This document shows positions 3,136 through 25,184 of a DNA stretch of 42,082 nucleotides, piece after piece. The stretch comes from a virus. Under the pieces are notes generated by a model, which saw only the letters and a list, made by a program, of their open reading frames with translations, was not told where the DNA came from and did no database searches. The first letter of the stretch is position 1; every line of letters begins with the position of its first letter. The DNA lies in the IMG/VR virus record IMGVR_UViG_3300047586_000340, positions 1 to 42,082 of that record; one strand, written 5' to 3'. The position numbers and the translations under genes are program-made.

Positions 3136-3894
3136 CTACATTATCATTGCAATCCTTGGTGTAAAACCACTCGGGGGTGTTGGTGGCGCCGCCCCAGACC
3201 CTAATGGCCACAACAGTGATTCAAACATGCAATATGGAGCTGCATAAAGAGAGGCAATTTCACCGACGGTGAGGGCACGGTTATAGATCAGGACGGAGAA
3301 GATGAGCCCACTGAAAGGAGTAGATTGACCGAACCCAATTCTGGCAACATCAGTCAGGCCGGTCAAGGTTTTAAGCCCCAGACTCTCGCCATTATGATAT
3401 AATTCAAGCGTGGAACCGCTTTTTGTTAATGCAAACATTCGTAATGCCAACGATAATGTAGAGGAATATTGCCAATTTACCTGTCCACCAGGATATCCAC
3501 AATAAATCGACCCACTGTTACCATAAAAGAAACCTATATAAGTTGTTGATCCGCTTGCCCCCAAAAGTGGGCGGTCACCCGTAGCCGTGCTTCGTAACCA
3601 GACAATATATGTCATTGCCGGACCAGCCGCGATCGCAGACGCAAGCGCCACATAATCATTGCTATAGTCAAAACATAACGCCCCTCCGTGAGCGTCCGCT
3701 TGCCATCCACTTGTTAAACCCTGAGCCGTTACACCTGTGATGGTGCCGTGATTGCTTTGCCCGGAATAATCAAATACCTTGTCTCCGGACATCTCATTGA
3801 ACAGCCAACATCCGATGAGTCCCTTCGCCAGACGGTGTCCGTAATTAAGTCGGGAACCTATTGGCGGTTTTGGATGATAGGAAGAAACTATCAT
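3136..3894 (-). CDS. LamG/concanavalin-like tail-associated protein
   Basis: The 252-residue product has the hallmarks of a LamG-like jelly-roll domain across about residues 25-215: GLIGCWLFNEMSGDKVFDYS near the start (the usual W-x-F-N-E...D-x-S-G...H-G-T opening), GGALCFD-YSNDYV, and the closing FSVLIYNRALTVGEIASLY. Such domains bind carbohydrate or fold as fibre heads in phage tail proteins. Its start codon overlaps the stop of the upstream gene 3894-4535. The same pairing (215-residue protein followed by a surface-type protein) is seen again at 18991-20444. Receptor binding or decoration of the virion is inferred. Confidence 0.7.
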   Translation of the reverse strand: MIVSSYHPKPPIGSRLNYGHRLAKGLIGCWLFNEMSGDKVFDYSGQSNHGTITGVTAQGLTSGWQADAHGGALCFDYSNDYVALASAIAAGPAMTYIVWLRSTATGDRPLLGASGSTTYIGFFYGNSGSIYCGYPGGQVNWQYSSTLSLALRMFALTKSGSTLELYHNGESLGLKTLTGLTDVARIGFGQSTPFSGLIFSVLIYNRALTVGEIASLYAAPYCMFESLLWPLGSGAAPPTPPSGFTPRIAMIM

Positions 3895-4535
3895 TAATCT
3901 GCTCCACTCGCTGTCTGATAGGCTATTTCACAGTTTGCTATTGTTGCATCCAATATGAAGATGTTTTTACAAACATGATTCAAGTTTGAGGCAACTGGAT
4001 TATTGATAGGAATCACCTTCTGCCCGGCGGCGGCGGTAGATAACACGTCTGTCTTGAACGCCGTCAAACCCGCGCAACTTACGAGTCTGCACCATTCCGT
4101 CCATTCATCGACCGTGGCCTCTTTGCGGATCTGCACCAGGATCTCCGTCCCCAAATGCGCCGTGATGCCTACGATAGCAATATCAACATGAAGCGTCGCC
4201 GCATAAACTGCCGTGAGGTCGATTTCAGCACTTTCAACATAGGTGGCCAGAGCTACGGATGTCCATTCAAGAGGCTGAGTGTTTTGTGTTTTTGCCAAAG
4301 TATCTATGCCTGTCAATGCTGTAAGACGAAGCCTCGCGACGATGGTCGACCCCGTCGCTCCGTAATTGTTATTGATGATTACTCTTGCCCCAGACACATC
4401 GGGTGGGAGAGTGATGGCATGGGTTTTTACAGATTCCCCTGCCATACTGTCAGCATGAACGGTATAAATATCTGCTGTGTTCAAATGCTCAAATTGTAAA
4501 TTATCAAGAACTTCTATCGTATCTTGGGCTGCCAT
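3894..4535 (-). CDS. Phage structural protein, paralogue of 19797-20444
   Basis: This 213-residue protein is clearly homologous over its full length to the protein at 19797-20444: both share IEVLDNLQFEHLNTADIYTV, GARVIINNNYGATGS, YVESAEIDLTAV, HLGTE, and AAAGQKVIPINNP or the close variant. The sequence is beta-rich with no known motif. AAAGGAG stands before the ATG. The two copies lie 15 kb apart, one after head/connector genes and one among fibre-like genes. The copy here is less GC-rich. A virion component is likely; function unknown. Confidence 0.65.
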   Translation of the reverse strand: MAAQDTIEVLDNLQFEHLNTADIYTVHADSMAGESVKTHAITLPPDVSGARVIINNNYGATGSTIVARLRLTALTGIDTLAKTQNTQPLEWTSVALATYVESAEIDLTAVYAATLHVDIAIVGITAHLGTEILVQIRKEATVDEWTEWCRLVSCAGLTAFKTDVLSTAAAGQKVIPINNPVASNLNHVCKNIFILDATIANCEIAYQTASGAD

Positions 4536-16561: not shown

Positions 16562-17046
16562 GTACCCACCGCCTTGACAATATCAGCGGGGATCTGCCCC
16601 AGAATGCCGAGCACTTGCGCCCGTTTCTTTTCCAGGGTATCGGTGAACATTCTCCGGGGTTTCGTACCTCGCTTCGAGATCGCCCTGGCGATCAGGAAAG
16701 CGACGGATTTCGCCTCTTTTCCGGTCAAGCCCATCTGCTTTTCAACCCAGTACTGAATCGGCGCCACCGGCGGGAAGTGGGGTCTTGTCCCCAGTTCCAC
16801 CGCCTCCCCGTATTTAGCCGGGGTGGAGACCATGCCCCAGACCGGCACGCCGATATTGACCTTGTGAAAGATCATATCCCGCAGGTGGACGGGGCCCGCA
16901 CCGACCGGTGTGGACGCTTTAACCGCCGCTTCCAGCAGCAGCAGGGACTCGGTGATTCTGGAGATCTTCGCCGCACGGGCCGCCTCCGGATATTTCTGAA
17001 CCAGGCGTTCAAAGGGTTTGAGGTCGAAAGATATCTTGAGTTCCAT
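16558..17046 (-). CDS. HK97 gp10-like / Mu gpG-like virion morphogenesis protein
   Basis: 162 residues with family-like core: STPVGAGPVHLRDMIFHKV (residues ~46-64), KYGEAVELGTRPHFPPVAPI (~78-97), then YWVEKQ and a C-terminal helix. The VE-x-GT-x-P-H-F motif is characteristic of head-tail joining proteins of this group. Overlaps neighbours at TAATG and ATGA. It probably completes the neck or tail end. Confidence 0.7.
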   Translation of the reverse strand: MELKISFDLKPFERLVQKYPEAARAAKISRITESLLLLEAAVKASTPVGAGPVHLRDMIFHKVNIGVPVWGMVSTPAKYGEAVELGTRPHFPPVAPIQYWVEKQMGLTGKEAKSVAFLIARAISKRGTKPRRMFTDTLEKKRAQVLGILGQIPADIVKAVGT

Positions 17047-17813
17047 TATCGGGTCCTCCGGCCGTGGGTCGCCTTTTCCGTTCCCCAGCTCCCCGTCGAT
17101 TTCTGCGCTTTCGTGGCGCCGGCGGGGAGAACGTCGCCTTCCTTCACGCCGATATGGCTATAGTAATTTGCGCGGTATGTTCTCGCCTTCGACGCGTATT
17201 CGGATGCTTTGCTCTTGTGGTCCACGCTGTCCGCCTGGATGGTGCTGTCCTGCGTCTGGGCGTAGTAAGTTGCCAGCATGTCGCAAAAGACAGAGGCGGC
17301 CAGCATCTGCAGGGCTTCCTCGTCGATCGCCGGAATGGTGCAGGCCGCGTCGGTACAGGTTTGCAGCGACGTATAGGCGATCCGCATGGATTCTGCGGCC
17401 AGGGGTTTCTCCGTAAGAAATCTCAGGTATTTCCCGGCCGGTTTTTCGTAAATTGTCCACTCGTCGGAATCCAGGAGCTGCGCTTCATAGACCGTATCGT
17501 CCACGGGATACTCGACCGTTTTGATGGCGGAAAACCCGTCGATCCAGTCCGCCAGGAGCGTCAGGGCATAATCGAAGCCGCCGTCGCCGGCTTCGTCCTC
17601 GGTCACGATCCGGGGCTTATAGCCGGAATAGGTCTTGACGGCCTTGTTGATGGAAAATATCTTCTCCGCCTCGCCCAGGGGCAACTCGCCCCCGACCAGG
17701 TTCCCGATCGCCGTGATGTAATCCTGCCGTGTGCTCGTCGGGACAGCGACGGCAACGGGCGCCACGGGAGGCGCGACAGGTGTGCCCGTTCCTGATCCGG
17801 TCCAGTCGCTCAT
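17046..17813 (-). CDS. Head-tail connector-like protein
   Basis: 255 residues. After a Pro/Ala/Val-rich N-terminus, the segment RQDYITAIGNLVGGELPLGE followed by AEKIFSINKAVKTYS looks like an adaptor protein of the gp6/gp16 type, and a helical middle (EEALQMLAASVFCDMLATYY) contains several aromatic residues. Gene order just before the gp10-like gene supports a connector role. Overlaps the upstream gene by ATGA. Confidence 0.55.
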   Translation of the reverse strand: MSDWTGSGTGTPVAPPVAPVAVAVPTSTRQDYITAIGNLVGGELPLGEAEKIFSINKAVKTYSGYKPRIVTEDEAGDGGFDYALTLLADWIDGFSAIKTVEYPVDDTVYEAQLLDSDEWTIYEKPAGKYLRFLTEKPLAAESMRIAYTSLQTCTDAACTIPAIDEEALQMLAASVFCDMLATYYAQTQDSTIQADSVDHKSKASEYASKARTYRANYYSHIGVKEGDVLPAGATKAQKSTGSWGTEKATHGRRTR

Positions 17814-18994
17814 GCGTGAGTTACCTCCGTATCCGGGTTGATGAAATCATCTCCCGTCTTGAACCTCCATAAATACACCGTTGTCCCCGCCGGTAGATTC
17901 GGGTAGAAAGTAACTTTCCCGAGCGCGTTGGTGGTCCCCTGATGAATCGGATTTGCCAGGAGACTGTCCGTGGACATGATGACCAGGGCGTCCGCGCAGG
18001 GCGAGCCGTCCACCGTCAGCGTATATTCGTGCGCTACCGGCCCGGTTCCGACTCCGCCGATCGCAGTTAGGATGGCCGCCAGCCTCGTGCTGTTCGTGTC
18101 CATCTCCTGCCGGATTTCCACAACCGTGGGTGCCGCGCCGCCGGTCGGGGCCTCTTCCAATGCGTTCGCCGTCAGTCTGCGCACGCCGCCGTCGTCTTCA
18201 GTCATTTCCCAGAGATGATCGAGCTTTGATCCGTCGGCTTCCAGCGCCGTCTTGATCGCTGCCGTGTCAGGCGGAGCCGTATTGGCGTAAGTCACCTTTC
18301 CATTGGCGTCCGTGACAATCTTCTGAGACGGAGTGACGAGCACAAGTGCCGCCGTTGCCGCCGGAATTGCTGCGTCGGAGATTGCCGTATCGCATTGAGC
18401 GTTCACATCCGCCGCCGAGAGATCATTCAGTCCGGTCAGCCCCGTTCCCTTTGCGAGAACGATATTCGTCCCTGCGGTCAGGAGCCTGATTGCCGCCCCC
18501 CATACCGCCGCTGCCATATCGGAAACGAGAGTGCCGAAGGATTGGATGCTGGCCGGCGTCGCCGCGTTCAAGCTCAATTTCTGCAATGCCCCAAAATCAA
18601 TATTCGCCTGCTCGACAACGGAAACATCCAGTTTGTCCGCCCCGAAAAGGGAGTCCCAAACCTGAGCGGGCACCACCAGAAACACCCGCCAAACGGAGAG
18701 GTACGTTGTCGGTTCCGAGTGCATGACCATGAGTGTGCCGAGCGTGTTAGTGTCTACCGCACTTAACGAGACCTTAAAAAAGCCATGCGCGTCATAGGTG
18801 GATGCAACAAAATTTGCTCCTTGTTCCCTGATCGTCGCCGCACCGCCGTTCTTGCTCAGGAGGATGCCCGTTGTTGCGTGGTCGATTGAGGTGATGATCC
18901 CCGCGCCGGTCTGCAAGGTGACGCCGTCCCCTTTGGAAAGGAAAGGTCCGAAGGTGATGACACGCACCGTTCCCTGTTTCAGCCATTGGCTCAT
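17810..18994 (-). CDS. Virion-associated protein with C-terminal carboxypeptidase-regulatory-like domain
   Basis: 394 residues from the ATG at 18994 (AGGAGG before it, ATGA overlap with the upstream gene). Residues ~1-90 (VRVITFGPFLSKGDGVTLQT, GAGIITSIDHATTGILLSK) form a beta-domain found in other phage neck or baseplate proteins. The middle is Ala-rich helical. The last ~85 residues (EYTLTVDGSPCADALVIMST ... GKVTFYPNLPAGTTVYLWRF) look like a transthyretin/Ig-type beta-sandwich. Probably a surface-exposed virion part; function not known. Confidence 0.55.
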   Translation of the reverse strand: MSQWLKQGTVRVITFGPFLSKGDGVTLQTGAGIITSIDHATTGILLSKNGGAATIREQGANFVASTYDAHGFFKVSLSAVDTNTLGTLMVMHSEPTTYLSVWRVFLVVPAQVWDSLFGADKLDVSVVEQANIDFGALQKLSLNAATPASIQSFGTLVSDMAAAVWGAAIRLLTAGTNIVLAKGTGLTGLNDLSAADVNAQCDTAISDAAIPAATAALVLVTPSQKIVTDANGKVTYANTAPPDTAAIKTALEADGSKLDHLWEMTEDDGGVRRLTANALEEAPTGGAAPTVVEIRQEMDTNSTRLAAILTAIGGVGTGPVAHEYTLTVDGSPCADALVIMSTDSLLANPIHQGTTNALGKVTFYPNLPAGTTVYLWRFKTGDDFINPDTEVTHA

Positions 18995-19800
18995 GCGGCA
19001 AGCCTCCTGTAATGGTTCATAAATATAGGGACAAGATTGCTCCCCATCATCCACACCGGGAAAGCCGTCTCGTCGACTATTTCATAGGTATAAAATTCGC
19101 TGATGTAGGAAAACCCAGGCTGTTGATACGCCCAATTGAATATATTCCCGTCTCTTTGTGAGACGATGGTGACGCCGGTGGCGGAGGGAGCGAGGACTTG
19201 TTTTGCCGTAAAATTATCAACCGTACCGTTCCAGTTCGTAGTACCATAACATCCGGAATAGCTAGCGGAGGCAGAAACAATCATTTTATAACCAGAATAA
19301 GTCCCTGGAGTAATTACGTAACCACCCGAAACAACATAATTATCCATTACGATTCTTACCCCAGTTCCAGAAACATGCGACACTAAATCCATGCCCCACT
19401 TCAGTAACCAGCCAAACGCTCCGAAATAAGCCTGTCTTAGATACTCCATGTTGTTATTAACAGCGACCGCAACCCCGCCGGTAATGGTCCAAAGACCGAA
19501 TCTTGTCCATGCTGTTCCGGGAGGTTCATCTGTCGTCATGTTCGGATTGGCAAACAATTCTCCATCGTTTAGCGGACCGCCGGTAGTGGCAAGCGTTTCC
19601 CCTGTTCCCGCTTTCGCAATCCATCCCTGAAGCATCTTGCCCGTATTGTCTTTAATGCAGAGCAACTTTCCTATCTGGTTGGTCAGAACATTGGGCACGC
19701 CGAAATCAACAAAAGCCACGCCGTTCGCCGCGGAGACTTTCGCCGCAGCCAGCAAGACTCTCCCGGAATAAACAGTAAAAGGATTAAAAACTTCAATCAT
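18991..19800 (-). CDS. Virion surface-type protein downstream of paralogous protein
   Basis: 269 residues, rich in Gly, Tyr, Trp and Asn, predicted all-beta (IGKLLCIKDNTGKMLQGWIA, MDNYVVSGGYVITPGTYSGY). The C-terminus ends PIFMNHYRRLAA. No diagnostic motif, though the composition suggests a carbohydrate-binding-type beta-sandwich. It follows the 215-residue paralogue directly, mirroring the arrangement of paralogue plus LamG protein at 3136-4535. ATGA overlaps join it to both neighbours. Confidence 0.5.
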   Translation of the reverse strand: MIEVFNPFTVYSGRVLLAAAKVSAANGVAFVDFGVPNVLTNQIGKLLCIKDNTGKMLQGWIAKAGTGETLATTGGPLNDGELFANPNMTTDEPPGTAWTRFGLWTITGGVAVAVNNNMEYLRQAYFGAFGWLLKWGMDLVSHVSGTGVRIVMDNYVVSGGYVITPGTYSGYKMIVSASASYSGCYGTTNWNGTVDNFTAKQVLAPSATGVTIVSQRDGNIFNWAYQQPGFSYISEFYTYEIVDETAFPVWMMGSNLVPIFMNHYRRLAA

Positions 19801-20444
19801 GCGTCTGCTCCACAGGCCGTCTGGAAGGCGATTTCACAATTTGCGACTGTTGCATCCAAAATGAAGATGCTTTTGCAAACGTGGTTGAGGTTTCCCGCCG
19901 TCGGATTGTTAACCGGGATGACTTTCTGTCCAGCCGCCGCCGTACTCAAAACATCCGTTTTGAATGCCGTCAAAGTCGAGGCAAGCACGAACCTTCGCCA
20001 TTCCGTCCACTCCTCCACGGTCGCTTCTTTCCGGATCTGAACGATGACTTCCGTGCCCAGATGCGCCGTGTTTCCCGTGATCGCAACATCAATATGCAGG
20101 GTCGCTGCGAGTACGGCGGTAAGGTCGATCTCGGCACTTTCCACGTAAGAGCCCAAAGCCACCGGCGTCCATTCCAGAGGCTGGACGTTCTGCGTTTTTG
20201 TCGGAGGGTTGCCCGCCACAGTCAGGGCCGTGAGTTTTACCCTTGCGTGTATCTGTGAGCCGGTCGCACCGTAATTGTTATTAATGATAACCCTTGCGCC
20301 GGAGGCATCCGGGGGTAGCGTCACCGCCTGCGTTTTTACCGACTCGCCGGCAACGCCATCGGCATGGACGGTGTAGATGTCCGCCGTGTTGAGATGCTCA
20401 AACTGTAGATTGTCGAGGACTTCAATGGTGTCGATGGCTGCCAT
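19797..20444 (-). CDS. Phage structural protein, paralogue of 3894-4535
   Basis: 215 residues, homologous over the full length to 3894-4535 (shared LDNLQFEHLNTADIYTVHAD, ARVIINNNYGATGS, EWTEW, AFKTDVLSTAAAGQKVIP). It lies in the connector region and is more GC-rich than the other copy, so it looks like the older resident. Family unknown. The sequence pattern suggests a beta-rich capsid or neck decoration protein. Confidence 0.6.
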   Translation of the reverse strand: MAAIDTIEVLDNLQFEHLNTADIYTVHADGVAGESVKTQAVTLPPDASGARVIINNNYGATGSQIHARVKLTALTVAGNPPTKTQNVQPLEWTPVALGSYVESAEIDLTAVLAATLHIDVAITGNTAHLGTEVIVQIRKEATVEEWTEWRRFVLASTLTAFKTDVLSTAAAGQKVIPVNNPTAGNLNHVCKSIFILDATVANCEIAFQTACGADA

Positions 20445-20445
20445 G

Positions 20446-20718
20446 CTAACCTCCCGCCTTTATTTCGGTCGCCGCCTTCTCGTCCGTGGCGTTTAGTTTC
20501 GCCAGACAGGTGTCGATGAAATCCAACTCGGCCGTTTTTTTAACCTGCCATTCATCCCGCGCTTTCATGGCCGCCTGGATAAAGACATCCTGTCCTTTGG
20601 CGTCGGACCTTGCCCGCATCGAGAAAGTGTGCTCTCCGGCCTTATCCGTCCATACCCCCGTGATCGTAGCTTCCCCGGTCGTATCCGCATCATCCGCTAT
20701 GGTGATTTGCCAGCTCAT
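20446..20718 (-). CDS. Small hypothetical structural-region protein (90 aa)
   Basis: N-terminal half is beta-like (WQITIADDADTTGEATITGV ... HTFSMRARSD), the C-terminal half helical and charged (MKARDEWQVKKTAELDFIDT). Unknown family. Starts after a 50-base gap and ends one base before the next gene. The gap upstream contains a very basic open stretch without a start codon, which I do not call. Confidence 0.5.
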   Translation of the reverse strand: MSWQITIADDADTTGEATITGVWTDKAGEHTFSMRARSDAKGQDVFIQAAMKARDEWQVKKTAELDFIDTCLAKLNATDEKAATEIKAGG

Positions 20719-20769: not shown

Positions 20770-21237
20770 TCAATTTTTAAAAACGCCGGTTATCGAAAAC
20801 GTGTACGACGTCCCGCCGACCACATATTTGATTCTCAGGTAATTCCCGAAATTCGTGATGGCCTGCCGGTATTGACCGGTAGCCGTGATCTGGGTGACCG
20901 CCGTATGGGTGTACCAGTTGATATTGTCCGGAGAGACCTGGACCGTCACGTCCAGCGTCGAGGTGCTCTCTTCGACGGTTACATTGACGAAGATCTGCCC
21001 TTCGGCATAAGCGGAGACATCGAAGGCCGTGGAATAACCCGTGGCGGCGGTATAGATTCCGCTCGAAAGGAAGCCGACAACCCTGGTTTTGTGGTCCTGG
21101 GCCCGTCCGGCGCCCGGTACGATCGCTATGATGAAAATAACGGCCAGGAAACAACACAGAATCAATCGTGCGGCGCGATCCCGCCCTGGGACGCCTCTGT
21201 GGCCGAATAATCCAAAAATGCCTTTTAAACGCTTCAT
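20770..21237 (-). CDS. Signal-peptide-bearing phage protein (155 aa)
   Basis: Start at 21237 (GGGAGGGCAAA before it, ATGA overlap with the O-antigen-ligase-like gene). An unusually long N-terminus with a basic stretch precedes a hydrophobic segment (LILCCFLAVIFIIAIVPGAG) and RAQDHKT, a good signal-peptidase site. The mature domain (STLDVTVQVSPDNINWYTHT ... GNYLRIKYVVGGTSYTFSIT) resembles small beta proteins common in phage neck regions, which normally lack signals. Export is inferred; role unknown. Confidence 0.6.
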   Translation of the reverse strand: MKRLKGIFGLFGHRGVPGRDRAARLILCCFLAVIFIIAIVPGAGRAQDHKTRVVGFLSSGIYTAATGYSTAFDVSAYAEGQIFVNVTVEESTSTLDVTVQVSPDNINWYTHTAVTQITATGQYRQAITNFGNYLRIKYVVGGTSYTFSITGVFKN

Positions 21238-22334
21238 TTTGCCCTCCCTTCGTTTTGCCCGGCAGTTTCCCGGGTCCACATCCCCAGCCAGGCGACTCCC
21301 AGCAGCGCCGTCGGCGCGATATGCAGGTTATCAAATCCAAAACACCCCACCGCCAGGGCGGAAACGCCGGCGGCAACCTCCGGGGAAACCGAGTTTCGCC
21401 AAACGCAAACGGCGACAGAAATTAAAAATGCCGCAATCAGAATGATGCCGGGCAGGCCGATTTCAAACAGGACCCGGACATATTCGTTGTGGGCGTGCAT
21501 GAAAATGTTTTCGCCGATCAACATCCCGCCGATATCGACCACCTTTCCGGCAGCCGGATCCCCGGAGGCCAGGAGCGGGAAGACGGTCGGCCAGCTCTCG
21601 ATGCCGCGGCCGAACGCCTCCGACCGGAGCGACCAGAGGGCATGTTTCCAGGCAACCCAGCGGACGTTGTCCATTAGGGCGCCCAAGGCTTTGACCTTCC
21701 AGAACCAGGCCGCCGCGGCAAACCCGGCAGCGCCGCAGGACGCCATGAAAACCCGGCGGTTTTTTACGGCCATGAAGAGATAGACCAGCACCGCGGCCAG
21801 GGCGGCGAGCATGCCCGTCGTCGTCTTTGCCACCACAATCCCCCAGAGGATCACCGGGACCATGAGCAGCCACCAGCCGGACAGAAACGCCGGCAGGCAT
21901 ATGGCCAGGAAGATTCCCCCTGTATCGGGATTGAATGGCCCCGCGTTCTGTGGAGCAAACCAGGTCTTTGCGATTCCTGTTTCCTGCAGGCAGATCCAGC
22001 AGATCAGCGCGAGCGCCGCCAGACGTATCACAACCAGGATACGGCGTTTCTCGATCCGGCTGAATCCCTCTGCAGCAGCCAGGAAAATAGCGATCATCAC
22101 CAGTCCCATGTAGGCGTCATAGGCCGGCGGCAGGTATCGGGTTTGCACAACCAGGCAGACCAGCCAGAAAGCGGCATGCCAGGGGCTGGCCAGGAGGGAG
22201 GCAAACGCCAGCCCTCCCAGCCAGATGGCCGCGAGCTGCCAGGACAGGCGGAACTCGAACCCCGGGATGGGCATGATACAGAACATCAACCCGGGGATCG
22301 CCGCCAGTAATATCCATTCAGAAACTCTTGTCAT
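21234..22334 (-). CDS. O-antigen ligase/polymerase-like membrane protein (Wzy_C type)
   Basis: 366 residues with about 9-10 hydrophobic membrane segments. A large loop ends in MHAHNEYVRVLFEIGLPG (residues ~279-296), the H-N-x-Y...E-x-G-x-x-G signature of the WaaL/Wzy superfamily. The loop includes conserved-looking RGIESWPTVFPL. Such enzymes join or polymerise lipid-linked glycan on the periplasmic side of the inner membrane. Shorter than typical WaaL (about 400). It sits inside the virion gene cluster between two signal-peptide proteins and is translationally coupled to the downstream one. Seroconversion (altering host surface glycan to block superinfection) is the natural inference. Confidence 0.75.
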   Translation of the reverse strand: MTRVSEWILLAAIPGLMFCIMPIPGFEFRLSWQLAAIWLGGLAFASLLASPWHAAFWLVCLVVQTRYLPPAYDAYMGLVMIAIFLAAAEGFSRIEKRRILVVIRLAALALICWICLQETGIAKTWFAPQNAGPFNPDTGGIFLAICLPAFLSGWWLLMVPVILWGIVVAKTTTGMLAALAAVLVYLFMAVKNRRVFMASCGAAGFAAAAWFWKVKALGALMDNVRWVAWKHALWSLRSEAFGRGIESWPTVFPLLASGDPAAGKVVDIGGMLIGENIFMHAHNEYVRVLFEIGLPGIILIAAFLISVAVCVWRNSVSPEVAAGVSALAVGCFGFDNLHIAPTALLGVAWLGMWTRETAGQNEGRAK

Positions 22335-22358
22335 CTTGCCTTCACGTTTTAGTCTGCT

Positions 22359-22829
22359 TTAATAGCCCGCCCCTGGGCTGGCAGCCGGAAATGTTTTCAC
22401 GTAATAAGTCGTCGAGGTCGCTGCGTTTGCCGCACCCGGCATGACCCATCCCATGATCTGAGGATAGGTCGGCGCCGTCGTTGTAAAACCGCCGCCGGAA
22501 GCATAGAGTCGTGAACCAGGGGATGCCGGCGTCATACCGGTGATAATCCCCTCAACGACGATCTCTACCGTGGCCGCTGCCGCACCGCCCTTGCCGATAG
22601 CGCCGACGGCGGGACGAAGGGTCGAAGAGGTCATATCCACTTTATATGCCTTGCCGTCTGAAGGGCTGATGCAGACAACATTGCCTGTGGCCAAAAGTTC
22701 CCCGGCCGTTGCCGCGAAGCGCGTGGTTTTCGCTTTCCATGCCGCCGCTCCGAAAGCGGATGTGACGAAAAACATGATCATCATCAGAATCAGCGTCATC
22801 ATGATCCCGATATTTCTTGTTCTTTTCAT
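22359..22829 (-). CDS. Signal-peptide-bearing capsid-decoration-like protein (156 aa)
   Basis: Start at 22829 with AAGGAGGAAAGACCT before the ATG. The N-terminus (MKRTRNIGIMMTLILMMIMF, then FVTSAFGAAAWKAK) is a strong signal peptide. The mature part (FAATAGELLATGNVVCISPS ... DGKAYKVDMT) resembles small beta-barrel capsid decoration or DUF2190-type proteins normally encoded right after the capsid gene, as here. A secretion signal on such a protein is unexpected. It may be virion-derived but repurposed for the envelope. Confidence 0.6.
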   Translation of the reverse strand: MKRTRNIGIMMTLILMMIMFFVTSAFGAAAWKAKTTRFAATAGELLATGNVVCISPSDGKAYKVDMTSSTLRPAVGAIGKGGAAAATVEIVVEGIITGMTPASPGSRLYASGGGFTTTAPTYPQIMGWVMPGAANAATSTTYYVKTFPAASPGAGY

Positions 22830-22928: not shown

Positions 22929-24494
22929 TTACACAACGACCGCTTTGTACCCGGGCCGGTAATCGATCTCCGCGCCTGCATACTCGTGGCGGATCTTGTA
23001 CCGGGTCTTGTCGGCGATGAACACCTGCTCCGACTGCGGAGAGTCGGCCAGGAAAAGCTCCGGCTCCTGGCGGCCGTTCAGGTATCCCATCTCCACGATA
23101 TCCGCGATGGTGGGCGGCAGAATCAGGCCCCAATCGTTGGCATCCGTGAAAAGGGGATTGATGACCGGGTTGACCTTTCCCGCCAGCGCATTTCGGATCT
23201 TCGTGGTCAGATCGTTGGCGGTAAAATAAAACTCGTCGTTGGCGATGCCCATGATGGTGGGCATCAGATCGATGGGGCCCACCAGGTTCGGCTTCACCGA
23301 CGGATCGGCCAGAAGCCCCACGCGCTCGCCACTGTCTTTTTCCGTCATTTTGCCCAGGGCGATATAGGCAATCAGGGCGGTGGCGAAACCAAGCGCCGTG
23401 GAACCGAGATTCCCGTGCCCCGCCGTAAACCACGCCGTCCCATCCGAACAGTTGGCGTTATCCATGTAGAAGCTCCAGACGTACTTGGCATGGGTGCGCC
23501 GCGCCGACCTGGACAGTCCGTTGACGAGACGCTGGATGATGGAGATATCGTCATTGATGATCGTCTTGCGGGTGATCGTCAGGATATTCCCCCTCTGTCC
23601 GAGTGAATAGGTGGACTCTTCGTCGGTCACCCCGCCGATTTCCTGATAATCCGCCGCTTCCGGATCGACCGGAGCCAGGTCGGAAAACCCTCCGACCAGG
23701 ACGGCTTCCTGCTGGCGGAAGTCTTTGACGGGCTTCCGGACGGAAATGAGCAGCTCCTCCTGGAACCGGTATTCGCCGTACAGGGAGACGAGACGCCGGG
23801 CCAGCGTATTCCCCAGGACGTAGGAGAATGTCCCGCTGTTGATGTCCATCGAGCTGCGGAGCTCCGCCGGCAGGTTCTTCCGGTTGAACCGTCCGCTGAC
23901 CTCGTGATCGCCCGTGAAGTAACTGTACATCTCACGGAGGCTGGTGAAAGCCGGGACCTTGTCGAAATCGCTGTAATCCTGCACGTTCCGCATGTCTGCG
24001 AAGACGGGTTGGTGATCGAGGCGCTCCATGCCCGCCAGGGCGATCGCCTGATCCTTTTTGATATTGAAGAGGCGGTCGACGGCCATACAGGCCCGGTCAA
24101 GGCTACCCAGGCCGACCTGGAAATGGATGCCCGCGGGGACGCCCTCTCCGGGGTTGGGCTGCGGGTTGATCTTCGCCAGATAATCTTTCTCGTCGGCGAT
24201 GACCTTGTCCAGATCCGCCGCCTGGAATACCCGGCCCTCGAATGTCTTTTTGATCCGCTCTTTCGCCAGCTCCGGCAGGTCGCTTTTGACCAGGCCGTCC
24301 TTGAGCGCCATTTCGCAGCGGAAAATGGCCAGATCGTCTTTCGAGGCCAGTCCCGTCAGATCGGCGGGCTTTTCCGGCTCCATTGCCATCCTGGCCAGGG
24401 TCTCAATCTCCTGCTCGGAAATCGTTGTCAGATCCTTCCCGGTCAGGAGGGCCGGCCGCTTTTCTTGAATCATCTTCAAAAGCTTTTCCTTCAT
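22929..24494 (-). CDS. Probable internal-start product: scaffold-capsid form (521 aa)
   Basis: Within the 751-codon gene, ATG at 24494 is preceded by AAGGAGGATAAC, among the best ribosome sites in the window. It would give a 521-residue protein lacking the protease domain. Overlapping protease/scaffold products from internal starts are known (Mu I/Z, lambda C/Nu3). This would supply capsid subunits in excess of protease fusion molecules. Confidence 0.6.
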   Translation of the reverse strand: MKEKLLKMIQEKRPALLTGKDLTTISEQEIETLARMAMEPEKPADLTGLASKDDLAIFRCEMALKDGLVKSDLPELAKERIKKTFEGRVFQAADLDKVIADEKDYLAKINPQPNPGEGVPAGIHFQVGLGSLDRACMAVDRLFNIKKDQAIALAGMERLDHQPVFADMRNVQDYSDFDKVPAFTSLREMYSYFTGDHEVSGRFNRKNLPAELRSSMDINSGTFSYVLGNTLARRLVSLYGEYRFQEELLISVRKPVKDFRQQEAVLVGGFSDLAPVDPEAADYQEIGGVTDEESTYSLGQRGNILTITRKTIINDDISIIQRLVNGLSRSARRTHAKYVWSFYMDNANCSDGTAWFTAGHGNLGSTALGFATALIAYIALGKMTEKDSGERVGLLADPSVKPNLVGPIDLMPTIMGIANDEFYFTANDLTTKIRNALAGKVNPVINPLFTDANDWGLILPPTIADIVEMGYLNGRQEPELFLADSPQSEQVFIADKTRYKIRHEYAGAEIDYRPGYKAVVV

Positions 24495-25184
24495 GTTATC
24501 CTCCTTGTGATGGGCCGGCATGCCTGCCACAGCCCGGTTGAATTTCCCGCCGGCGGCGGGTCTCGTTACGATATCGACGGAATTGACCTCCTTGAACGCA
24601 TCAATCCGCAAAGTCGATCTGCCCTCAATGACGGCTTTCGTGCCGCGGATCAGGCAATCCCATGACAAACCGTAAACTTCCGCACCCTGGGACATGGCGT
24701 CCATGAGGTTGCGCCCCAGCGATTTTGCGCTGTCCAGAAAGTGCAGCACGCCCTGGAGACCTTTCCCGGCTGCATACCGGACGTTGTCGATCCAGCCGAC
24801 CTTGTTGCGGATCAGCAGCGATTTAAGGTCGAAGAGCGGCTCCGGAATATGGGAAGCGCCTTCCGGCAGCTCATACATATTGACATCCACGCCCTCGAAC
24901 AGGGGCGCCGACTGGCGGAGCAACTCGTCGGGGATATAGGAATTATTCAGGGTGAATCCCGGCTCGCAGATCGTGACGTCCCAGGCGCTGCCCTCGGGAT
25001 TTTTGGCCTGGCCGAGGCGCATAATCAGGCTCAGATCCCCGTCCGTCACTTCCGGCGCTGCTTCTTCCGTAGCCATTCGGACCACCAGGTTCTTGACCTC
25101 GTCGTCTGTTATGGTCTCGAATTCCTTACCGGTCAGAAGTTCCGGCCGGACGGACATGATTTTGTCCCAGAGCGTTTTTTTCAT
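22929..25184 (-). CDS. Fused prohead protease-scaffold-major capsid protein (gpT-like)
   Basis: 751 residues covering three jobs usually encoded by separate genes. Residues ~85-225 look like a prohead maturation protease: GLQGVLHFLDS (candidate His 148), YGLSWDC (candidate Ser 174) and the typical KEVNSVDIVTRPAAGG near 198-213. Residues ~231-345 are helical and charged, scaffold-like. Residues ~355-751 resemble the Mu gpT major head subunit (DINSGTFSYVLGNTLARRLV, AWFTAGHGNLGS, a long C-terminal domain). The first 38 residues are repeated at 231-268. A strong ribosome site sits before Met 231, so a second start is likely. Catalytic residues are inferred. Confidence 0.75.
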   Translation of the reverse strand: MKKTLWDKIMSVRPELLTGKEFETITDDEVKNLVVRMATEEAAPEVTDGDLSLIMRLGQAKNPEGSAWDVTICEPGFTLNNSYIPDELLRQSAPLFEGVDVNMYELPEGASHIPEPLFDLKSLLIRNKVGWIDNVRYAAGKGLQGVLHFLDSAKSLGRNLMDAMSQGAEVYGLSWDCLIRGTKAVIEGRSTLRIDAFKEVNSVDIVTRPAAGGKFNRAVAGMPAHHKEDNMKEKLLKMIQEKRPALLTGKDLTTISEQEIETLARMAMEPEKPADLTGLASKDDLAIFRCEMALKDGLVKSDLPELAKERIKKTFEGRVFQAADLDKVIADEKDYLAKINPQPNPGEGVPAGIHFQVGLGSLDRACMAVDRLFNIKKDQAIALAGMERLDHQPVFADMRNVQDYSDFDKVPAFTSLREMYSYFTGDHEVSGRFNRKNLPAELRSSMDINSGTFSYVLGNTLARRLVSLYGEYRFQEELLISVRKPVKDFRQQEAVLVGGFSDLAPVDPEAADYQEIGGVTDEESTYSLGQRGNILTITRKTIINDDISIIQRLVNGLSRSARRTHAKYVWSFYMDNANCSDGTAWFTAGHGNLGSTALGFATALIAYIALGKMTEKDSGERVGLLADPSVKPNLVGPIDLMPTIMGIANDEFYFTANDLTTKIRNALAGKVNPVINPLFTDANDWGLILPPTIADIVEMGYLNGRQEPELFLADSPQSEQVFIADKTRYKIRHEYAGAEIDYRPGYKAVVV

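Follow-up and report, generated by a model that had tools for sequence, protein, structure and literature searches.

The window, by which we mean the whole stretch of DNA analyzed, is a viral contig of 42,082 nt (IMG/VR virus record IMGVR_UViG_3300047586_000340, positions 1 to 42,082). It matches the MuA C-terminal domain, an AAA protein, Gam, GemA, Gp27 and gpF, and so contains the set of proteins (MuA-type transposase, Gam, GemA, Gp27 and gpF) by which a Mu-like transposable phage is recognized. The head genes lie on the minus strand in the order terminase, portal, gpF-like gene, a small gene and a fusion of protease and major capsid protein (22929..25184; Phage_capsid_4, 2.8e-28). Downstream of the fusion gene, on the same strand, are DEC (22359..22829), encoding an exported protein of 156 aa with a predicted capsid-decoration fold; WZY (21234..22334), encoding an O-oligosaccharyltransferase-like polytopic membrane protein of 366 aa with a Pfam Wzy_C domain; and a gene for an exported DUF6385-domain protein of 155 aa (20770..21237). 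Four further minus-strand genes specific to the window (17810..20718), which are absent in the sister phage L012, come before a connector-like gene (17046..17813, minus strand). The latter is named for its position, is without a Pfam match and is the next gene after this slot in most complete relatives.

A preliminary description of the locus had read these three minus-strand genes as encoding an exported protein, a Wzy_C membrane protein and a second exported protein, the last two genes being coupled by ATGA. This was borne out by the sequence and by Pfam. An n-region, a hydrophobic core and a signal-peptidase-I-like site can be recognized in each of the small proteins, and the ATG of the DUF6385 gene (21237; stop at 20770) overlaps the stop codon of WZY. 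The description had also placed the genes between capsid and connector genes, which is right for the slot as a whole, but the connector-like gene is not directly next to them. Compared to L012, all genes are under purifying selection, with dN/dS values of 0.28 for DEC, 0.24 for WZY and 0.12 for the DUF6385 gene.

Relatives of the capsid protein were found in MAGs named Syntrophobacterales, Deltaproteobacteria, Desulfomicrobium, Desulfonema, Verrucomicrobiales and Spirochaetes. One relative, G422, is integrated as a prophage within a 388-kb contig, in a genome from the order to which the Syntrophobacterales MAG belongs. At the genome end of the window, positions 275-1054 encode a D12-class adenine methyltransferase with 80% identity to that at the end of the G422 prophage. 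A tblastn search of 50,697 phage records with WZY, DEC, the DUF6385 protein and a Wzy_C protein from a further prophage (L162, below) gave zero matches.

Signal peptide and fold of DEC

The likely start of DEC is the ATG at 22829, which has a strong ribosome-binding site, AAGGAGG, in front of it, and the stop is at 22359. The start given in the list of open reading frames (178 aa, 22895) lies upstream of this likely start. From the sequence, the first 27 residues (22749..22829, minus strand) are predicted to form a Sec-type signal peptide with putative cleavage between AFG and A. No in-frame ATG, GTG or TTG is found between codons 20 and 45, so that the whole domain could not be made in a cytoplasmic form from a conventional start. 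Signal-peptide-like N-termini were called in 73 of 76 DECs by a simple rule on hydrophobicity and cleavage site, which is an untrained predictor. Only L116 and L127 are clearly without one; they share a branch of the capsid tree, lack WZY and have weak matches to PHROG head decoration or Pfam Phage_cement_2. Elsewhere in the window, near the fibre end (1273-2059), two more small proteins have signal-peptide-like N-termini.

The mature domain of 129 aa (22362..22748, minus strand) was modeled with AlphaFold2 from 62 sequences and reached a pLDDT of 92.7. An earlier model, for which 8 sequences were used and the signal peptide was kept, had a pLDDT of 54 and was discarded. The closest structures were from Adjutor (Z 13.1; 3.2 A over 114 residues), Patience (Z 12.9) and HFTV1 (Z 12.6), followed by the decoration proteins of T1 (Z 9.5), Pam3 (Z 9.4) and XM1 (Z 9.2) and, as distant neighbours, P21 SHP (Z 6.4) and lambda gpD (Z 5.9); values over the set ranged from Z 13.1 to 5.5. 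By this confident model, mature DEC has the capsid decoration (cement) fold. The gene also lies directly 3' of the major capsid gene, as do the genes for decoration proteins. Decoration proteins are made in the cytoplasm without a signal peptide, and DEC departs from them in this respect. A predicted export signal on a protein modeled with a decoration fold is the surprising fact of this locus. The preliminary description had set homologues among virion proteins against its own proposal; the modeled fold of DEC goes that way, but its export does not. The closest solved relative by sequence is the C-terminal domain of gp82 (profile match 2e-6, residues 133-226), the virion neck fibre of Anabaena phage A-1(L) (PMC10966104).

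DECs differ in length among the relatives. The long forms have extra domains added at the C-terminus and resemble multi-domain fibre proteins. One locus, L070 (12212-13754), has tandem DEC genes, one long and one short, and is without WZY. The heads of tailed phages are put together in the cytoplasm, and an exported decoration protein would need a hypothetical step after lysis to reach them. That step would be unnecessary if the exported proteins, though derived from decoration proteins, stayed out of the virion and worked in the periplasm or on the cell surface, for example as adhesins or decoys, with WZY glycosylating them there. The signal peptides of nearly all DECs and the fibre-like appearance of the long ones fit such a role, and the mature domain is under purifying selection (dN/dS 0.25), a result compatible with either reading. 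We nevertheless consider it distinctly unlikely, because both the fold, that of a decoration protein, and the position of the gene, the canonical one directly after the capsid gene, favour binding to the capsid.

The Wzy_C protein

WZY matches Pfam Wzy_C (PF04932) at 4.1e-10, with 40.1 bits against a curated cut-off of 31.7, and carries the AHNEYVRVLFEIGLPG motif. Wzy_C was the only Pfam family common to 25 of 25 WZY relatives (E ≤ 0.1), and the PglL_A and Wzy_C_2 domains had no match among them. On these sequence matches, we regard the Wzy_C membership of WZY as firm. One Arg (WaaL R288, PglL R298) and one His (H338, H349) are functionally important in PglL and WaaL (PMC3643930). Arg225 of WZY (21660..21662, minus strand), kept in 25 of 25 relatives, and His282 (21489..21491, minus strand), which lies in an AHNEY motif and is kept in 24 of 25, align with these conserved residues. 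The Arg and His conserved in protein O-oligosaccharyltransferases are thus both present in WZY in the alignment to 9rmk. At the column of the second family Arg (WaaL R215, PglL R224), where the alignment is weak, the WZY family has Ser or Thr. The oligosaccharyltransferase 9rmk was the sole PDB match, and a weak one (1.2e-6), of a profile built from 6 WZY sequences. A profile of 25 sequences matched no PDB chain and did not reproduce it, so the match is a lead only. The NCBIfam TfpM family (NF058641) matched one of 25 members, at E 0.012 and 14.7 bits compared to a cut-off of 600, and NCBIfam did not separate ligase, transferase and polymerase for WZY.

It is the gene context that suggests a protein-glycosylating enzyme. 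Protein-specific O-oligosaccharyltransferases adjoin their one exported acceptor and WZY directly follows an exported gene, which is why we favour protein glycosylation. The same context, as far as it can be read from the sequence, argues against O-antigen ligase (WaaL) activity. Wzy_C domains are common to ligases, polymerases and protein transferases, and WZY could instead be O-antigen ligase-like or polymerase-like and alter the surface glycan of the host, giving lysogenic conversion or superinfection exclusion, with the exported proteins helping or blocking receptors. A Mu-like temperate phage with an integrated relative, G422, would be a suitable carrier for such a function. Even so, it appears rather unlikely here. 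WZY lies within the late head operon, where no promoter of its own was found, and no GtrA, GtrB or acetyltransferase match was seen among the Pfam-scanned window proteins. Several Wzy_C proteins are already present in host genomes. A change of surface glycan would also leave unexplained both the tie of WZY to one form of DEC, described below, and the decoration fold itself, and it fits the strict pairing and the fold less well than protein glycosylation does. The preliminary description had proposed a late-expressed or operon-internal cassette for envelope remodelling. What is kept of this is a predicted glycan-transferring membrane protein with exported partners in a late head operon; remodelling, with seroconversion, has become the main alternative instead of the best reading.

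The WZY gene was irregular in a few loci. In L078 (4408-4986), WZY has only 193 aa, and in L053 the extended frame of the WZY match is interrupted by one in-frame stop; either could be due to decay or to a misassigned start. In L051 (8155-8751; same contig as L007), the place of WZY is filled by a TPR protein with an N-terminal membrane segment, with DEC and DUF6385 genes on either side.

Pairing of WZY with short DECs

Viral contigs were scanned with WZY as anchor, giving 16 loci, and with DUF6385 as anchor, giving 29 loci. A capsid-anchored scan, blind to the content of the slot between capsid and connector genes, gave 79 viral and 9 genome loci, and the slot was then classified with profiles built in this analysis. 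Conservation of the gene order in other phages, which the preliminary description had put forward as a check, was found, with DEC and WZY together in 27 non-redundant loci. The association was assessed in the 59 non-redundant capsid-anchored loci with a complete DEC, a short DEC being one of up to 210 aa. Short DECs were accompanied by WZY in 23 loci and lacked it in 7, while none of the 29 long DECs had WZY (Fisher p = 1.7e-10, n = 59). The WZY trait changed at least 12 times on the capsid tree. In eight independent, well-supported pairs of loci differing in WZY, a short DEC was concordant in 7.4 on average and discordant in 0 (median p 0.016). Adding five loci found through WZY or DUF6385 gave the same picture. 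Every WZY in the capsid-anchored set directly follows an exported DEC.

DEC and WZY also diverged together. Among the 23 WZY-bearing loci, the correlation of distances was 0.56 for DEC and WZY, compared to 0.06 for DEC and capsid, 0.09 for WZY and capsid, and 0.67 for capsid and connector. Given the capsid distances, the partial correlation of DEC and WZY was 0.55, a value reached in 0 of 2000 permutations. Linkage alone can make adjacent genes co-diverge; however, the capsid gene also adjoins DEC and does not co-diverge with it, which runs counter to linkage alone. These results bear on whether WZY is hitchhiking cargo at a recombination hotspot, functionally unlinked to DEC. The slot after the capsid gene is a hotspot, many relatives have other cargo beyond the DUF6385 gene, and the TPR membrane protein in L051 shows that the place of WZY can be taken by another gene. 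Cargo is very unlikely all the same, given that WZY occurs with 0 of 29 long DECs, always comes directly after an exported gene, shows co-divergence with DEC and none with the neighbouring capsid and connector genes, and recurs in other prophage contexts.

The DUF6385 protein had been proposed as the third member of a three-protein system. Signal-peptide-like N-termini were found in 33 of 36 DUF6385 proteins, and the family had no PDB match. Its gene was not associated with WZY among the capsid-anchored loci (10/21/13/15, p = 0.30), and a three-gene system was rejected on this ground. Since WZY occurs only with short DECs and DUF6385 is unassociated with it, the unit is DEC plus WZY, two genes that are swapped against a long multi-domain DEC. 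They form a conserved cassette that has been repeatedly exchanged between phage backbones.

The region downstream of the DUF6385 gene is variable. Besides the four genes absent in L012, other cargo was found at the same place in L008, L025, L027, L084, L067, L036, L054 and L058, and window positions 19797-20444 are an 80% identical paralogue of 3894-4535. Judged by these sequences, the stretch beyond the DUF6385 gene is an insertion hotspot.

Wzy_C genes in other prophages

Two prophages outside this group also have a Wzy_C gene immediately downstream of that for an exported head-region protein. L161, a more distant Mu-like prophage, has the order capsid, exported 150-aa protein, Wzy_C, connector, and its exported protein shares homology (2e-17) with the domain that some long DECs have at their C-terminus. 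In L162, a prophage with a P22-like portal and Phage_capsid_3, the capsid gene is followed by a 194-aa gene, then by one for an exported 256-aa protein and then by Wzy_C; scanning viral sequences with this Wzy_C protein brought up no relative. A third, prophage-like locus, L175 (G729:C59:17000-27000), encodes, with predicted starts, three proteins of interest: an exported one of 289 aa, a Wzy_C protein and one of 395 aa. Residues 75-371 of the last match the major head protein phrog_9953 (8e-24), and its first 74 residues, taken from the predicted start, resemble a signal peptide plus a membrane segment. Nearby is an 841-aa fibre-like protein with a predicted signal-peptide-like start.

The tail of short DECs

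After its last strand, DEC has a disordered C-terminal tail of low pLDDT. In short DECs paired with WZY, the tail ends in a motif like P-x-[ST]-x-G-A-G-Y, with the conserved Ser or Thr about 5 residues from the end and almost always Tyr, Phe or Trp as the last residue. In the window, the tail reads P-A-A-S-P-G-A-G-Y, and Ser151 (22377..22379, minus strand) is the candidate O-glycan acceptor. Of 26 short DECs paired with WZY, 24 had a Ser or Thr at this column, compared to 1 of 6 unpaired ones, a contrast that is only suggestive because the sequences are related. Long DECs carry their additional domains at the same C-terminal place, and thus the tail of a short DEC should face outward. No such motif is present in the exported partners in L161 and L162, and this speaks against an acceptor site common to all.

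Discussion

The decoration fold of the DEC model, the signal peptides, the Wzy_C domain, the pairing with short DECs, the co-divergence and the recurrence in other prophages were all obtained by computation. We tentatively favour, as the most plausible account of them, an acceptor-enzyme cassette in which WZY glycosylates the exported decoration protein, much as TfpO modifies pilin. DEC would be a decoration protein that gained a Sec signal peptide and leaves the cytoplasm via Sec. WZY, as an O-oligosaccharyltransferase-like enzyme in the inner membrane, would take a host-made glycan linked to lipid (undecaprenyl-diphosphate) and, at the periplasmic face, pass it on to exported DEC, where the most likely site is the conserved Ser or Thr of the flexible C-terminal tail. 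Protein glycosylation, the acceptor residue and assembly after lysis are what we infer from the gene context, the tail and the export signal.

For several phages, it is established that decoration proteins join expanded heads after assembly. Glycosylated DEC could likewise meet mature, expanded heads at lysis and clad them; alternatively, it could stay in the envelope. The full scheme is possible but doubtful: Sec-secreted decoration proteins would be O-glycosylated in the periplasm with a host lipid-linked glycan and laid on finished heads at lysis, virions would wear host sugars, and in related phages an extra domain would replace the enzyme. In the titles and abstracts searched, among which subscription journals were thinly covered, neither signal peptides on decoration proteins nor periplasmic glycosylation of capsid proteins was described.

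Several points count against glycosylation of DEC by WZY. The activity of WZY and the glycoprotein nature of DEC are predictions from sequence. The second Arg of WaaL and PglL appears to be replaced by Ser or Thr, and the conserved Ser of the tail is not terminal. Of 30 short DECs, 7 lack WZY. The pairing could reflect cassette linkage alone. The failure of the larger profile to reproduce the oligosaccharyltransferase match, the TfpM score far under its cut-off and the tail-less partners in L161 and L162 also argue against it, as does the hypothetical step after lysis that an exported decoration protein would need.

An exported decoration-fold protein conflicts with head assembly in the cytoplasm and raises the question of whether the particles of a tailed phage receive, once the cell has lysed, a coat of protein that was processed in the periplasm. 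Its pairing with WZY suggests a phage route of protein glycosylation that uses the lipid-linked sugars of the host. In a large group of Mu-like phages, where a decoration-fold protein with a predicted secretion signal is paired with a membrane enzyme from a family that attaches sugar chains, this may mean that a part of the coat is exported for sugar-coating. If this is true, DEC and WZY would be a new acceptor-enzyme pair outside pilins, with the short tail as a possible glycosylation site, and virions could carry the surface sugars of their own host, with consequences for adsorption and stability.

Compared to known systems, DEC and WZY look like a variant on the theme of a protein O-oligosaccharyltransferase and its acceptor, a variant for which the literature searched, seen in part, gave no published precedent. 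TfpO, TfpM and PglS are encoded beside a single exported acceptor, and TfpO and TfpM, which are without PglL_A and Wzy_C_2, use a C-terminal Ser or Thr of that acceptor (PMC12645811; PMC3643930). The phage locus resembles TfpO/PilO, TfpM and PglS in having a single Wzy_C-type enzyme beside one exported putative acceptor with hydroxyl residues near its C-terminus. The domain make-up of WZY is that of TfpO and TfpM, which is also that of WaaL, and all 25 members differ in this from PglL and PglS. Unlike TfpO, TfpM and PglS, WZY is phage-encoded, lies in a head operon and reaches no NCBIfam family cut-off, and the putative acceptor has a predicted decoration fold rather than a pilin fold and a conserved Ser or Thr 5 residues from its end rather than at it. 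WaaL shares the Wzy_C domain and the residues aligned with Arg225 and His282, but WZY lies outside an LPS cluster, is tied to an exported phage protein and has Ser or Thr at the R215-equivalent column.

Like the seroconversion cassettes (gtrABC, wzy-alpha, oac), WZY is a phage-encoded enzyme of the envelope-glycan type. In contrast to them, it sits in the head operon, paired with DEC, and no gtr genes or O-acetyltransferase were among the scanned window proteins. The likeness of A-1(L) gp82 to DEC is confined to its C-terminal domain, whereas DEC consists of a signal peptide and a single, free-standing domain. Finally, DEC resembles the decoration proteins (the minor capsid proteins of Adjutor and Patience, those of T1, XM1, Pam3 and HFTV1, lambda gpD and P21 SHP) in its modeled fold and gene place, and differs from them in its predicted Sec-type signal peptide and its Wzy_C enzyme partner.
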